Origin: a virus
Strand: one strand, 5' to 3'
DNA length: 21,641 bases
Virus record (IMG/VR): IMGVR_UViG_3300008219_000126
Coordinates: 1-21,641 of that record
In this document: positions 8,810 through 15,772 of the stretch, piece after piece
How positions within the stretch are numbered: the stretch's first letter is position 1
Layout: each line of letters starts with the position of its first letter
Translations under genes and position numbers: made by a program
Notes under the pieces: generated by a model
Databases searched by the model: none
Seen by the model: only the letters and a program-made list of their open reading frames with translations
What the model was told of the DNA's origin: nothing

Positions 8810-9077
8810 AAAGCAACCAGACCCACGATTCTCCTTGAAGACCTTTGATGGGATTCTTCATACAGTTGAGGACACCCTTGAGCAGTTCAATAGTGGAATA
8901 CTCGATAAGGGAGACGTGTCTACTATCGGAAGCCTGCTAACCATTGCTCGTCAGACCATTTCCGACAAGAGCAAGTATGCAAAGCTGAAGAACCCGGCAG
9001 CAAAGAAGAACGAACCGGCACAAGAGCTTACCAGCCACGGTCCCTTCGGGATCCTTAGAGGCGGCAAGTCGGGGTGA
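8796..9077 (+). CDS. Probable terminase small-subunit-type or packaging accessory protein, 93 aa
   Basis: The start lies inside the 8285 gene (14-base overlap), and its TGA overlaps the GTG start of the large terminase, so the three are translationally coupled. About residues 13-65 are helical with the spacing 'L..FNSGILDKGDVSTIGSLL..A...I', which is common in the short proteins encoded just before large terminase genes. The C-terminus (KNPAAKKNE) is basic and the final residues glycine-rich. There is no clear helix-turn-helix, so DNA recognition may come from the adjacent 8285 protein. The assignment rests mainly on position and size; small subunits are poorly conserved. Confidence 0.6.
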   Translation: MSKDRKQPDPRFSLKTFDGILHTVEDTLEQFNSGILDKGDVSTIGSLLTIARQTISDKSKYAKLKNPAAKKNEPAQELTSHGPFGILRGGKSG

Positions 9078-10690
9078 TTGTATACCCAGACCACAAAGAC
9101 TTCTGGAACCCAGAAGCCTTTCTACCTATGACAAGGGTTCGCACTAAGAGCGGATCCATAGAACCATTCCATCTTTGGGATCAGCAAAAGATCCTATCCG
9201 CAGCCGTTATGCGTTGCTACAAAGAGGGAAAGTGGCTTGTACACGTAAAGCCGCGTCAGGAAGGTAGCTCAACGTTCTTTACCGGCGTTGGTGTACAGCA
9301 CGCAGCGTTCAGAACAGGATGCAGAGTAGGCATCCTCGCCCACAAGAAAGTTCAGAGCCAATATCTCTCATCTGTAGCAGTGCGATTCCATCGCTATATG
9401 CCCGATGAGATTAGGCCAAAGAAGACTCCAGGACTCAAGAGAAGTCTGGAGTTCCCAGAGATTGATAGCCGTATGACTATTGCCTCTGTAAAAGATGACG
9501 AACCGCTTCGCGGTGAGACTGTTCAGGTATTGCTAGCCACAGAGATATCCGCATGGTCTGAAAACGGTGGGCCAGAAGCCTGGACAGCAGCGCTCAACGC
9601 TGTTCCCGGAGACGGTGGCTTTGTCATTGCTGAATCAACACCACGCCACCACGGCGACCAGCTACACCTTGTGTGTACAGACTCTGAGGCGCCAGACAGC
9701 AAGTGGATGAAGGTGTTCATTCCTTGGACCATTGTTCAGGAATACAAAGTACAGCCACCACCAAGGTGGAAGCCTCGACTAGATGTGCGTGACTATATGG
9801 ATCAGCACAAGATCCCAGAAGACTCTGCCTATTGGATGCAGACAGTTGGATTAGAAAAGTGCCGAAACGACCTAATGAAGTTTCGAGCAGAGTATCCAGT
9901 AAATGAACTAGACTGCTGGATTCTGGCTGGTGACGCTGTATACAACGCAAAGAGACTCATGGAGATATTAGATCTTCTCGACAGAGGCACAGGATTGAAT
10001 GTCGAGACAGATGAATGGGTTGTGTTTAAGAAGCCAATGCCCAATAGCAGATACATAATCTTTGTAGATCCTGCTGGATCATGGGCCAAAAGAGACATGT
10101 TTGGCGTCGAGATATTCGATGTCGATGGTTGCTCGCAAGTGGCCGAATATCTAGGGCATGCAGAAGCCTTCCGTATGGCAAGAAGGATCATTGAGTGGGC
10201 TAAGCAATACAATAATGCCCGCATATACATCGAAGCCAACGGTGTAGGTGAAGCGGTTTTATCTCATGTGGTTGCTATGGGATATCGAAACGTCTACCAC
10301 AGGAAAGCATCTGGATATGGTTCTGGTGGGAAGCAACGCATTCCAGGCTGGTACTCCAACTCAAAGACAAAAGCACAAGCAGTTGGATACCTACAAGAAC
10401 TCATAGATGATGGCTCAATCACAATCCACTCAGTTCGCTGCCTTCGGCAACTCCTGAACTATCGGGGCCAGTGGGACAAGCTCTCTAGAGACGTGTCTGG
10501 CGGGCACTATGATCTTGCTGCCGCTGTGGCTGGTATTGCTTGGGCGTGGCGTAATGAGATAGGTGCCCAGCACCATAAGAAAAACATGTCCCCAAAACAG
10601 ATAGAAAATGAAGCCTGGCGAAGACTTCTTGATAGGATTGACCGCGCATCTATCAATGAATGGGACACCCCATGGGGTAAGCACATATGA
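9074..10690 (+). CDS. terL: Terminase large subunit, 538 aa
   Basis: This is the ATP-driven motor and nuclease that packs DNA into the head. The N-terminal ATPase shows a Walker A-type KPRQEGSSTF at 59-68, a Walker B strand VLLATE at 152-157 with E157 as the likely catalytic acid, and AESTPR at 186-191 as the coupling motif. The C-terminal RNase H-like nuclease shows its three expected acidic residues in VDPAG (D332), IEANG (E387) and HYD (D480). The length is normal for the family. The GTG start overlaps the previous stop as GTGA, and the stop overlaps the portal start as ATGA, so expression is coupled to both neighbours. The identification is firm. Confidence 0.95.
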   Translation: MIVYPDHKDFWNPEAFLPMTRVRTKSGSIEPFHLWDQQKILSAAVMRCYKEGKWLVHVKPRQEGSSTFFTGVGVQHAAFRTGCRVGILAHKKVQSQYLSSVAVRFHRYMPDEIRPKKTPGLKRSLEFPEIDSRMTIASVKDDEPLRGETVQVLLATEISAWSENGGPEAWTAALNAVPGDGGFVIAESTPRHHGDQLHLVCTDSEAPDSKWMKVFIPWTIVQEYKVQPPPRWKPRLDVRDYMDQHKIPEDSAYWMQTVGLEKCRNDLMKFRAEYPVNELDCWILAGDAVYNAKRLMEILDLLDRGTGLNVETDEWVVFKKPMPNSRYIIFVDPAGSWAKRDMFGVEIFDVDGCSQVAEYLGHAEAFRMARRIIEWAKQYNNARIYIEANGVGEAVLSHVVAMGYRNVYHRKASGYGSGGKQRIPGWYSNSKTKAQAVGYLQELIDDGSITIHSVRCLRQLLNYRGQWDKLSRDVSGGHYDLAAAVAGIAWAWRNEIGAQHHKKNMSPKQIENEAWRRLLDRIDRASINEWDTPWGKHI

Positions 10691-12447
10691 ATGCCCACAC
10701 AGATCTACATGCAGGACCCAAGGCTGAGCACAAGTCCATCCAAAGAATGGTTGGGCTAGTTCTCCAAACAGAAGAGTGGTACCAAAAGCACCGTGCAGAC
10801 GAAGTAATTCGTAACCTTTCTTACTATAGAGGAAGGTTCTGGGATGGGGATGGAATCTCCATTAAGGCTGCCGATTCTCGTGGGTATAACGCTGTTCAGA
10901 ATGAGATCTTTCCTATTGTGGACACCATTGTTTCAGCATTGGCAATGGATCTTCCACAAGTTGAAGCCCTTGATCAGCGCCAAGGCGCCACAGATGTGCC
11001 GGAAAAAGAGAACGATCCAACCTTTGCTGGACGCAGGATTGCTTCTGTATTGAACTGGTTCGCAGAAGAAGATGAACTAGATACTGTCATTCAAGAGCTT
11101 GTTCTTCATGCGCTTCTGTTCGACCAATCTGTCGTTAAGGTGTCCTGGTCTGCCAATCTGGGTAGGCCGATTTGGCGAACCAAACTACCGTGGGAAGTAC
11201 ATTTCGATCCAAGCGCCAAACGGGTCGCTGATGTTGGCTGGTCATTCGAGAGATTCGTTCTACATTATGACGATTTCAGGGGCAGGATTGAAAGCGGCGT
11301 CTACGATAGACCAAAGAAGGCTATTCCGGCAGATACCTACCCTAGTTCAATCATTGATACTAGGATGCCTCTCGAGCAAGAAGTTGAGCTTAGGGAGAAG
11401 GGACTAAAAGAGTATGTTTCTCTTATAGAGTTTTGGGACTTTAGAAAGAAAAAGCTATACCACCTGCATCCAGATACGGCTCAGCTTCTCATGGAAGCAG
11501 ACATGCCTTATGAGCGACCATACGATGCGCTCATCTTCCATCCTGGTGTTGGTCGTATTCGTGGCATCTCTGATGTAAGTTTGATTGCTCCAATCCAGAG
11601 GGACATCAATGAGCTTGTTTCTGCTCGTCGTGAGATTGTGGCCCGTCTTCCCCGTCGTATGCTGGTAGACCGCAAGCTATTCAGGTCTGACGAAGAGTTT
11701 GAACGGTGGAAGAACGCAAGATCTTGGGAGCCCGTGCTTGTTGAGGGCCCGCCAGACGGAACCATTGATCAGCATGTGTGGGTCTCACCAGAGATGCCGA
11801 CTACATTTGATTTTAATACGCATCTAAACCAGGGCATCGAGTCTATTCGTTGGTTGCCTGGAATGGCTGACTATCAGCATGGTCAAGTAAAGAACATTCG
11901 TACCGCAGCAGAAGCGAATATGATTCGTGGCGCCATTGAAGGTCGCCTAAACATTAGGGCAAGGAAGGTTGTTCGCGTTGTGACAAGCATGTTCCGAAAA
12001 GCATTGGCTACAACTAAGTGGGCGTTAAGAAATCCAGAAGCTTCTGGAATCAATGTCGAAGCAATCGCGTCGATTACCCAGGCGGAACCAAATAGTTTAA
12101 TGCTTCAGAAGGACCTGCTTGAGGTGTCTCCTTCGTTCAGACTTCTTCCATTCTCTCCACTTATGGAAGACAAGATCGCACGAAGGGACTCTCTTACAAA
12201 CCTCCTTGCCCCACTTTCGAGCCCATCTCCACTTGGAGAAGCCATGAACCAAAGAGAGCTTGCAAAAGAAATTGTAGATGCTTTTGGGTTCAGACCATCC
12301 TTGGTAAAGACAGAAGAAGAGGCTGTTCAAGAACAGGCGGCAGCACAACAAGAAGAGTTATCGCCTGGGGCTGCGGGTCCAGGGCAGGTAGGGCTTCCAC
12401 TTCCACCCAATATCGGACTTCCTCCTGGGGTTATCCCGGAAGGTTGA
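10687..12447 (+). CDS. Portal protein, 586 aa
   Basis: The position directly after the large terminase with an ATGA overlap, the 586-aa length and the sequence layout identify the ring through which DNA enters and leaves the head. Visible portal-like features are an N-terminal aromatic helix (EEWYQKHRADEVIRNLSYYRG), a central beta-rich part with 'PWEVHFDPSAK' and 'SLIEFWDFRKKKLYHL', and a long helical segment 'IAPIQRDINELVSARREIV' followed by the 'TAAEANMIRGAIEGRLN' helix typical of the portal stem and crown. The C-terminus from about residue 545 is glutamine-rich, then a proline/glycine tail, probably disordered. A P22-like class is plausible from the tail genes downstream. Confidence 0.9.
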   Translation: MNAHTDLHAGPKAEHKSIQRMVGLVLQTEEWYQKHRADEVIRNLSYYRGRFWDGDGISIKAADSRGYNAVQNEIFPIVDTIVSALAMDLPQVEALDQRQGATDVPEKENDPTFAGRRIASVLNWFAEEDELDTVIQELVLHALLFDQSVVKVSWSANLGRPIWRTKLPWEVHFDPSAKRVADVGWSFERFVLHYDDFRGRIESGVYDRPKKAIPADTYPSSIIDTRMPLEQEVELREKGLKEYVSLIEFWDFRKKKLYHLHPDTAQLLMEADMPYERPYDALIFHPGVGRIRGISDVSLIAPIQRDINELVSARREIVARLPRRMLVDRKLFRSDEEFERWKNARSWEPVLVEGPPDGTIDQHVWVSPEMPTTFDFNTHLNQGIESIRWLPGMADYQHGQVKNIRTAAEANMIRGAIEGRLNIRARKVVRVVTSMFRKALATTKWALRNPEASGINVEAIASITQAEPNSLMLQKDLLEVSPSFRLLPFSPLMEDKIARRDSLTNLLAPLSSPSPLGEAMNQRELAKEIVDAFGFRPSLVKTEEEAVQEQAAAQQEELSPGAAGPGQVGLPLPPNIGLPPGVIPEG

Positions 12448-12884: not shown

Positions 12885-13412
12885 ATGCCAATCTTTGATT
12901 ATGTTTGCTCTGGATGTGGTTCTTCAAAGGAGCACTTGTACCTTGGATCTGAATCTATACCGGACAGTATTGCTTGTAGCTGTGGTAGCAGTTCCACTCG
13001 CAGTGGTGTTTATAGCTTCAATCCTGTCGGCCCTATTTGGTCTGGCCTTGAAGACTATTCAAAGGCTATCTATGGCACTTCTGGGATGATGCGCGGACAA
13101 GAAGTAAGAACATACAAAGATATTAAGAAGTTTGAAGAAGAGAATAGTTTTGTAAGAACAGACCCAAACTCCGTAAAGTATCGTTCATCTGTTGATGATA
13201 TGAAGCAGGAAGCGCTTGAACTTGACCGTGTTGCAGAACAAGATGGTCGTGAAGCCGTAGCAGATCATATCTACAAACAAGAGATGAAAGACGCTACCGG
13301 TTGGACGAATACACAATATAATCGCTGGAAGGAGATTTCAGATGCCTGTGACCCCACCGATGCCCAACTTGCCGGGGGCACCAACTGCGGGAACACTCCA
13401 GATCCCGTCTGA
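12885..13412 (+). CDS. FmdB-type zinc ribbon protein, 175 aa
   Basis: The first 34 residues (MPIFDYVCSGCGSS with C8 and C11, then ACSCG with C31 and C33) match the FmdB/CxxC zinc ribbon, except that the second knuckle is CxC rather than CxxC. Residues 35-175 are a longer extension than in stand-alone FmdB proteins (around 70-110 aa), rich in acidic helices (DMKQEALELDRVAEQDGREA) with a cysteine pair near the end. Zinc ribbon proteins of this type recur in phage head gene clusters, with no settled function. The last 71 bases overlap the next gene's start in another frame, an unusual amount for this cluster. Structural or assembly role is inferred from location. Confidence 0.8.
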   Translation: MPIFDYVCSGCGSSKEHLYLGSESIPDSIACSCGSSSTRSGVYSFNPVGPIWSGLEDYSKAIYGTSGMMRGQEVRTYKDIKKFEEENSFVRTDPNSVKYRSSVDDMKQEALELDRVAEQDGREAVADHIYKQEMKDATGWTNTQYNRWKEISDACDPTDAQLAGGTNCGNTPDPV

Positions 13413-13929
13413 CGAAGAGCTTCAAAACATGCCTCTGGAGGAACTAGAAAAGCTAGTTCTTCAGGCAACAGATGATGTGAATCTTGCTCTTCAACAACAG
13501 GGTGTTGATCTTGGAATCGGTACCGGTGCGCCAATGGGTGCCGGGGCGCCGCCCGCACAGGGCGCAGAACTTAGTTTAGTTACCCCAGAGTTGATACAAA
13601 AGGCTTCGGATGCGCTAATGGCTGCCGGAATCCTTCCTGGTCCTGTAGCAGAAATGTCCCCAGAGTTTATGGAACTGCTTGTTCTTTTGGCAGATGCGAT
13701 AAGTCCTGGTGTTTATAATCTACAAAACGAAGATGATTTAGTGGAGTTTTTAAATGGAATCGCAACAGGAATCATTGCCCTCCCAGCAATCCCAGGAGCC
13801 CCAGGAGCAGGAGGAGCAGTCCAAGGCGGACCTCCAGCAGAAGCTGTTGGAGGGCCTCCAGTCGCAGCACCAGGAGGAGTCCCCGGAACAACCCCAGCAG
13901 CAGGACCAGGAATCATCCCCGGAACTTAG
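13342..13929 (+). CDS. Proline/glycine/alanine-rich protein overlapping both neighbours, 195 aa
   Basis: A good AAGGAG (13328-13333) lies eight bases before the ATG, supporting this start inside the FmdB-type gene. The N-terminal half has an acidic helix (DEELQNMPLEELEKLVLQ) and a further helical segment (PEFMELLVLLADAISPG). From about residue 140 the product becomes low-complexity, with repeats such as GAPGAGG, GGPPAEA and PGTTPAAGPG. This tail (13754-13929) is encoded in the same DNA as the start of the scaffold-like gene, one frame apart. Its role is unknown; position suggests a head assembly function. Because both neighbouring frames have supported starts, I consider the gene real. Confidence 0.7.
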   Translation: MPVTPPMPNLPGAPTAGTLQIPSDEELQNMPLEELEKLVLQATDDVNLALQQQGVDLGIGTGAPMGAGAPPAQGAELSLVTPELIQKASDALMAAGILPGPVAEMSPEFMELLVLLADAISPGVYNLQNEDDLVEFLNGIATGIIALPAIPGAPGAGGAVQGGPPAEAVGGPPVAAPGGVPGTTPAAGPGIIPGT

Positions 13930-14671
13930 CGAGCTTGCGCCGGAAACGGTTGAAACAACAGAGCAGATTGAGTCTTCGAGTGGCGACTCAAGTATTGTTC
14001 CTGAAGCTGAGCAGCCTGCTTCTGATCAAGGACAGGAGGCACAAGAAGAACAAAAAATAGAGTTCTCATCGTTTGATGATGTATCTATTGATTCCATTCC
14101 AGAAGAATCGCGCCCCTATGTGCAGCCTATTCTTGATCTTGCATCCAACTATGTTTCAGAGCTTCAAGAAGAAAAGAATAGATTTGAATCTGCAAGAAGT
14201 GAGTTCCATGAACTCATGGATTCCATTCGATCTTCAGAGGATATCAAACCTCTAGTTTCTAAGTTAGAAACACAGCAAGTTACTATTGACGAGATGACTA
14301 AAGACGTCGTGTCTGCGTCATGGCGAGCATTTAATGCTGCCCATCCTGAGATTGATAACCTTCCACAAAATGCAAGAGATGAGTTCGCTGGGCAACTCGA
14401 GCATATTTATGAAAGGTTTCAGGGCGAAACACTTGTAGATAGAATGGAAGACGCATATAAGTATTCCTTGTATCGTGCAGGTATTAAATTGGATTCACTT
14501 TCTGCTGCTACCATTCCAGAGCCAAAGCTGGAGCAAAAGCAACCTAATCCCGTAGCGACCAAGCAAGCGGTAGTAGCAGATGGACATGTTGCTCATGGTC
14601 AGCCTGTACGCAGCGTTGACGAGATGGAATGGGGTGAAGTGCTTGGTCGTTACGATTACCTTCTTGAATAG
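13754..14671 (+). CDS. Probable capsid scaffolding protein, 305 aa
   Basis: Position immediately before the major capsid gene, acidic and helical composition, and a coiled-coil centre identify it as a likely scaffold, the internal core around which the procapsid forms and which is later removed. The first 60 residues are glutamine/glutamate/serine-rich (QQESLPSQQSQEPQEQEEQ) and disordered. Residues 105-215 are charged helices (YVSELQEEKNRFESARSEFHE). The C-terminus near 285-305 is compact and acidic-aromatic and may contact the capsid subunit. The start has GGAG (13743-13746) seven bases upstream and the frame is closed by TAA at 13751-13753, so it cannot begin further upstream. The N-terminal 176 bases overlap the previous gene. 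Confidence 0.8.
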   Translation: MESQQESLPSQQSQEPQEQEEQSKADLQQKLLEGLQSQHQEESPEQPQQQDQESSPELSELAPETVETTEQIESSSGDSSIVPEAEQPASDQGQEAQEEQKIEFSSFDDVSIDSIPEESRPYVQPILDLASNYVSELQEEKNRFESARSEFHELMDSIRSSEDIKPLVSKLETQQVTIDEMTKDVVSASWRAFNAAHPEIDNLPQNARDEFAGQLEHIYERFQGETLVDRMEDAYKYSLYRAGIKLDSLSAATIPEPKLEQKQPNPVATKQAVVADGHVAHGQPVRSVDEMEWGEVLGRYDYLLE

Positions 14672-14689: not shown

Positions 14690-15772
14690 ATGGCTTTGCT
14701 AGAATACGCAACACGAACCGTCCCTGACGTTGTAAAGAAAAGCGTTCTCTCTTTTTATAATAGAGATCCTCTTCTTTCTCGCCTTCAATCGCGTAACCAG
14801 GTGAAGCGCTCTGGAGGCACCAACGTTCGCGTTGTTCGCGTCAAGAGCGGTCACTCGGATGTGACGCAGATTGATGCATCCAACATCAGCGTCCCGCTGA
14901 ACAAGAAGGAGACACTATCCTCCATGTCGGGAGATTGGGCCAAGTACATTAAGCCCATCATCCTTCCGCACATTGATCGGGATCGTCAGTCCAACAAGGA
15001 AGACGTAAAGCGCTTCATTCAGGACATGACGAATGCTGCGATGCAGAGCTTGAAGAACGATGTAGTTCGCCAGCTTTATATTGGAAACATCACCACTCTA
15101 AGTGGTCTTGGTACCCTGAATGGAAACACAACGGGTCTTTCCTCTACTGGTTTTGAGAATGGTGCCCTTCGGTTCCAGACTCCAGCCGATCAAGCTTCCG
15201 CCACTATCGCCTATCTTGGTGAGACTCGTGTGAACGATACCACTGACTTTGTGGACAACTGGTTTAACCAGTACGCCGTACACACTGGTTTTGGTACTGA
15301 CTTCATGCAGACGGCAGAAGAGATCAAGATCACTGCTGATACTTATGCAGAGGATGAAGAGGGCATCTCCCTTGGCGTCGTGTCCATCTCGGACCACGTT
15401 GCATTGGGTGAGGAGCTTCGTGCCTACCCCGGTGGAGCAACTGCTGGAGCCATTGTTTACACTGTGGATGACTTGGAGAAGGGTCGAGCCCATCCGACTG
15501 TCCATGTAGCCAATGGTGTTCAATACTTTGCAAACCGTTGGATGACGGATGCTGCCATTGATTCTGGTGGAACATTCCAGAACCATGCGTACTTCCTGAA
15601 CCCGAATGCTATCGAGTATTGGGTGAATGCAAACAACGACTTCCGCGTTACGAAGTTCTCTGATCACTTGGAGACATCGAACACAGATGCGGACATTGCA
15701 TACATCCTTCTCGAGATTCAGTTCGCTGTTCCCAACCTCATGGCTAACGGCTGTACGTCTGACACCGTATAA
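14690..15772 (+). CDS. Major capsid protein, HK97-fold type, 360 aa
   Basis: Assigned as the shell-forming capsid protein from its place after the scaffold, its length and sequence features: an N-terminal arm (LLEYATRTVPDVVKKSVLSF), an acidic/basic helical part (EDVKRFIQDMTNAAMQSLKN) resembling the HK97 spine helix, a central domain with beta strands, and a C-terminal 'FLNPNAIEYWVNANNDF' segment followed by a hydrophobic strand 'YILLEIQFAVPNLMANGC', a common capsid ending. GGAG (14678-14681) lies eight bases before the ATG, which suits high expression. No leader protease is seen, so maturation, if any, is not by a fused protease. The precise family cannot be named here. Confidence 0.9.
   Translation: MALLEYATRTVPDVVKKSVLSFYNRDPLLSRLQSRNQVKRSGGTNVRVVRVKSGHSDVTQIDASNISVPLNKKETLSSMSGDWAKYIKPIILPHIDRDRQSNKEDVKRFIQDMTNAAMQSLKNDVVRQLYIGNITTLSGLGTLNGNTTGLSSTGFENGALRFQTPADQASATIAYLGETRVNDTTDFVDNWFNQYAVHTGFGTDFMQTAEEIKITADTYAEDEEGISLGVVSISDHVALGEELRAYPGGATAGAIVYTVDDLEKGRAHPTVHVANGVQYFANRWMTDAAIDSGGTFQNHAYFLNPNAIEYWVNANNDFRVTKFSDHLETSNTDADIAYILLEIQFAVPNLMANGCTSDTV

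Follow-up and report, generated by a model that had tools for sequence, protein, structure and literature searches.

A conserved terminal overlap of two head-module genes in an uncultured tailed-phage family, with constraint on both reading frames

The window analysed here, the whole stretch of 21,641 nt, is a fragment of an uncultured tailed phage, and its head module is encoded on the + strand. Two genes of this module, here called gene A and gene B, share a segment of DNA directly in front of the capsid gene. The features are as follows:

9074-10690, + strand: large terminase gene (PHROG match)
10687-12447, + strand: portal gene (PHROG match)
after the portal gene and before the Zn-ribbon-like gene, + strand: gene of a 131-aa protein
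12885-13412, + strand: Zn-ribbon-like gene, with an N-terminal Zn_ribbon_8 match under the Pfam cut-off
13329-13334, + strand: ribosome-binding site AAGGAG of gene A in the sequence, 7 nt 5' of its ATG
13342-13412, + strand: second, smaller overlap of 71 nt, between gene A and the Zn-ribbon-like gene
13342-13929, + strand: gene A, an ORF of 195 aa with an ATG start and homologues in 22 relatives
13743-13746, + strand: ribosome-binding site GGAG of gene B in the sequence, 7 nt 5' of its ATG
13751-13753, + strand: TAA in the sequence closing the B frame, directly 5' of the B ATG and in frame with it
13753-13770, + strand: start-site block, read as N-G-I-A-T-G in A and M-E-S-Q-Q in B, its codons nearly fixed in the relatives
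13754-13929, + strand: dual-coded segment of 176 nt, the C-terminal tail of A and the N-terminus of B
13754-14671, + strand: gene B, an ORF of 305 aa with an ATG start and homologues in 22 relatives, probable capsid scaffold
14690-15772, + strand: major capsid protein gene (phrog_9953, major head protein, E 3e-11), used as bait for relatives

The B frame is the +1 frame of A (13754-13342 = 412 = 3x137+1), and the GGAG of B is located within the gene A codons GTG GAG. This anatomy agrees in every respect with the first-pass annotation, which had described two genes written over the same 176 bases in different frames, good ribosome-binding sites at both starts, the TAA at 13751 as the end of the upstream B frame, and a Pro/Gly/Ala-rich tail of A lying over a Gln/Glu/Ser-rich start of B. 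Downstream, gene B directly precedes the major capsid protein gene, with its stop 18 nt upstream of the latter. The smaller overlap of A with the Zn-ribbon-like gene is an ordinary one, since its length is variable among the relatives: at loci with a clear A start, it ranges from none, with a gap between the genes, up to an overlap of about 86 nt.

For the terminase, the best E-value among the matches listed was obtained with Roseobacter phage CRP-7 (22.8% identity, E 9e-29). The portal, capsid, A and B proteins matched none of 50,697 phage records, and the phage seems to belong to a family without a named isolate in this collection.

AlphaFold predicts a helical core for protein A, with helices up to residue 142 and a pLDDT of 85-95, followed by a disordered Pro/Gly/Ala tail with a pLDDT of about 44-52. 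The start of B falls inside the last predicted helix of A, and the structured core of A ends where B begins. A fold search with A gave no match under E 0.5, and no part of A is sufficiently conserved for a profile. Judging from the position of its gene among the head genes, A may be a minor structural protein or take part in assembly. In protein B, the N-terminal ~100 aa are acidic, rich in Q, E, S and P and predicted to be mostly disordered, with one low-confidence helix at 18-37. Further helices are predicted at 117-160, 165-196, 205-242 and 293-304, including a short helix pair at the C-terminus, at moderate confidence (overall pLDDT 64.6). Scaffolding proteins usually contain a helix-loop-helix, which is C-terminal in P22, and are encoded by a separate gene (PMC3185693). 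From its position and predicted fold rather than from homology, B is a probable capsid scaffold. The earlier description of B as scaffold-like thus holds with respect to its position upstream of the capsid gene and its predicted fold, and finds no counterpart among scaffold families: B itself had no match in PHROG and Pfam, including any link to lambda Nu3, and the B members of the family gave weak and scattered PHROG matches, none to a scaffold family. Profile searches against the PDB returned coiled-coil or chance matches only. The fold search with B yielded one strong match, BFVD A0A516LKR5 (E 4.7e-14, 24% identity), an unnamed viral protein of 296 aa with no function attached, and no confident match to a named structure.

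Scans of IMG/VR with the capsid protein revealed 23 distinct loci, the window included. All relatives are metagenomic contigs, and none were found among genome contigs and named phages. The loci form several well-supported clades with capsid identities as low as 43% (median 58%) and a GC content of 0.40-0.69; they share ancestry, and counts over loci are not independent events. Conservation of both frames in related phages had been proposed as a check of the overlap, and it was observed throughout: in 23/23 loci the overlap is kept in the same +1 phase with a length of 98-203 nt, and none of the relatives found has a stop in either frame. The start of B is at the identical place in A in all 23 loci, where the last helix of A ends with the motif NGIxNG, and a GGAG/GAGG-type site precedes it in every case. 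The B frame is closed 0-17 codons upstream of this start in 22 loci and 32 codons upstream in the remaining one (L023), and the gap between B and the capsid gene is 7-66 nt in all of them. The start-site block, with the nearly fixed codons AAT GGA ATC ... GGA, is the most conserved portion of the overlap. Beyond this block, the overlap varies in length as well as in sequence. The GC content of the overlap is 0.56-0.71, independent of that of the locus.

The decisive evidence for selection on both readings is the choice of codons. Columns with the same residue were taken from 10 close pairs and the expected counts of identical codons were matched by residue and by pair. Within the overlap, gene A uses the same codon in 228/290 columns compared to 166 expected (z 8.2), and gene B in 215/264 compared to 169 expected (z 6.5), so that the reduced synonymous change proposed in the first-pass annotation as a mark of two coding frames is present in both genes; a single pair, L020/L024, has no excess of synonymous identity in B. 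The variability by codon position points in the same direction. In the A frame it is 0.23/0.23/0.32 in the overlap vs. 0.29/0.19/0.47 outside, and in the B frame 0.25/0.28/0.28 vs. 0.25/0.17/0.47; the near-equal variability of the codon positions inside the overlap counts for constraint on both frames. The individual codons are similarly affected. The glycine of A is encoded by GGA in 234/285 overlap codons compared to 54/181 outside, and the four-fold degenerate codons of A end in G in 1.4% of the cases compared to 20% outside, the wobble base of A in the overlap being nearly never G and seldom T. Codons of B end in T in 4.6% of the cases in the overlap and in 31.5% outside, and aspartate in B is GAT in 7/80 codons vs. 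263/469. At the ribosome-binding site of B, the glutamate codon of A is GAG in 22/23 loci compared to 111/307 in the remaining part of A, where GAA is the commoner codon.

The open frames themselves are of unequal value as evidence. In synonymous resamplings of A, the B frame survives in 7-84% of the cases, depending on the locus. Such an open +1 frame is cheap, since the second base of every Pro, Gly and Ala codon is C or G, with which a +1 stop cannot begin. When B is resampled with normal codon usage, the A frame survives in just 0.2-23% of the cases per locus, and the open A frame over B is therefore more telling than the open B frame over A. The length of an open frame as such was considered as a proof of dual coding and rejected as weak, given the 7-84% for B.

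Taken from these sequence comparisons, the segment is very probably an old same-strand terminal overlap, in which both disordered tails would be translated and selected and B would initiate on its own site. Here, A would be translated through to 13929, and B from its own Shine-Dalgarno sequence and ATG inside the last conserved helix of A; we infer that the segment of 98-203 nt is thereby read by ribosomes in both frames. Selection keeps the tail of A rich in Pro/Gly/Ala and the N-terminus of B acidic and rich in Q, E, S and P simultaneously.

The best surviving alternative is that B alone is translated across the segment and that the tail of A is a passive, functionless read-through to the first stop. 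The variable length and sequence of this tail and its predicted disorder would fit such a scenario, as would the tendency of a Q/E/P-rich B frame, when read one base earlier, toward Pro, Ala, Gly and Thr. However, the A frame should then be interrupted in most cases, as the resamplings of B demonstrate. Furthermore, if B is held fixed, the frame is kept open and synonymous codons are drawn at normal usage, the tail of A would contain 33% G+P+A, compared to the 69% observed, although in the GC-rich loci L023 and L051 the composition of the tail is marginally past the expectation (20/300 and 11/300 resamplings, respectively). In addition, the wobble base of B is shifted to G or C, as selection on A predicts. 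A passive tail is thus strongly disfavoured and appears quite improbable.

Frameshifting is known to produce C-terminally different products in gp10A/10B of T7 and gpG/GT of lambda, and programmed +1 frameshifting within the A/B overlap would lead to an A-B fusion in a comparable manner. The location of B in the +1 frame of A and the fact that both frames are open over the whole overlap in all relatives would allow this. Nevertheless, B has its own conserved ribosome-binding site and start in all loci, no common slippery or frameshift motif was evident by eye at the A stop among the relatives, and in the region around the B start, the one that was folded, no consensus RNA structure was found among them. 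A fusion by frameshifting is therefore a slightly fainter prospect than a passive A tail. The distance between the signals also bears on the way B is started: since the stop of A lies 98-203 nt past the start of B, termination-reinitiation at this stop cannot start B. Initiation of B is likely independent and would take place on an mRNA held open by the ribosomes translating A.

If, on the contrary, only A were translated, the true start of B would lie downstream of the A stop and the upstream ATG would be spurious. In favor of this, the +1 frame stays open over an A-like tail through composition alone, as often as stated above. But the Shine-Dalgarno sequence and start of B are conserved in 23/23 loci, GAG is forced upon A at the former and GGA at the second and sixth codons of B, and the wobble base of A is, as mentioned, nearly never G and seldom T. 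Moreover, with A held fixed, the N-terminus of B would contain 33% instead of 76% Q+E+S+P+D, and its mean net charge in the overlap would be +1.3 instead of -8.3. This reading is strongly disfavoured as well and very improbable. A constraint on the nucleic acid rather than on two proteins, through an RNA or DNA signal within the overlap, might explain the strongly conserved nucleotides of the start block and the GC content held irrespective of the genome, but is no more probable, since the block shows no consensus RNA structure and, past it, codon-phase-specific biases needless for such a signal persist where sequence and length vary.

Since the compositions exceed the resampling in both directions, neither tail is the passive outcome of the other protein and each frame is pulled to its own composition. 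The +1 register allows this. The wobble base of A is the second base of B, and an A or C at this position results in Gln, Glu or Pro in B; the wobble base of B is the first base of A, and a G or C results in Gly, Ala or Pro in A. For example, the A codons CCA GGA GCA are read as CAG GAG CA- in B, placing Pro-Gly-Ala over Gln-Glu-Gln/His. By this register, two disordered tails that are defined by their composition are easily co-encoded.

The A/B overlap belongs to the known class of overlapping phage genes, for which protein B of the microvirus phiX174, an internal scaffolding protein, is the precedent. This protein is encoded within gene A of phiX174 in another frame (PMC8227390). As with the probable scaffold gene of the window, this scaffold gene shares its DNA with a same-strand gene that is read in a different frame, has its own start, and both frames are constrained. 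In contrast, phiX174 is a small ssDNA phage whose gene B is wholly inside A, a replication gene, whereas the window contains a terminal overlap of 98-203 nt between two head-module genes of a tailed dsDNA phage, formed by two disordered tails; homology is not claimed. In viral terminal overlaps in general, the 3' end of one gene covers the 5' end of its successor, proline and disorder-promoting residues are enriched and synonymous codons are constrained (PMC8227390, PMC6195259), and the A/B overlap resembles them in all three respects. The curated set of these overlaps comprises eukaryotic viruses and excludes bacteriophages (PMC6195259). Compared to this set, the conservation here extends over a whole phage family and neither frame can be named as ancestral. 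In lambda, the scaffold Nu3 starts inside the protease gene C, that is, as in the window, within the preceding head gene and just ahead of the capsid genes. Nu3, however, is in frame with C, the two having sequence in common, whereas A and B use different frames and share no residues. CRP-7 (MK613349), with its distantly related terminase, has the same order of terminase, portal, small genes, scaffold and capsid, but its annotated scaffold gene meets the neighbor by 1 nt and in another phase. In the literature, no description of the A/B overlap was found.

The first-pass annotation had further proposed that one tail arose from the other by overprinting, which is unproven. A and B have an identical phyletic distribution, and further capsid scans of IMG/VR yielded only overlapping loci, which makes the phylogenetic criterion for the direction of overprinting unusable. 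CRP-7 was considered as an overlap-free outgroup and rejected, as its scaffold, neighbor and capsid have no detectable homology to those of the window. Beside the phylogenetic criterion, codon usage is accepted for this purpose (PMC8227390). In the overlap it departs from the background in both frames, with a mean log deviation of -0.20 for A and -0.26 for B and a pooled RSCU correlation with the background of 0.13 and -0.06, respectively, and hence does not separate the frames. The disordered N-terminus of B extends well beyond the A stop and is therefore more than a by-product of the A tail.

In tailed dsDNA phages, a long overlap between different frames is readily written off as a misannotated start codon. 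All relatives found have kept the overlap described here, its two frames are both constrained, and the residues it encodes are disordered and evolve fast in A as well as in B. The 23 natural versions of the overlap represent a test series for the co-encoding of two low-complexity proteins. They are also a warning, since gene callers that trim overlaps would remove about 60 residues from A or B. One may speculate, with considerable doubt, that A and B cooperate when the head is assembled, their tails being under joint selection and co-evolving, and that length and register of the overlap set their relative expression. If so, the whole family would have kept the arrangement through a divergence to 43% capsid identity.

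Two further observations concern this region. The locus L003 has a capsid protein near-identical to that of the window and a B that is 93% identical, but an A (L003:3647-4249) that is just 71% identical, in which the final ~30 residues are nevertheless identical. The divergence of A likely reflects a recombination boundary or a fast-evolving patch that ends within the overlap. On the minus strand, an antisense ORF of 67 aa (13713-13916) spans the A/B overlap, which is probably a mere consequence of the composition of the latter.
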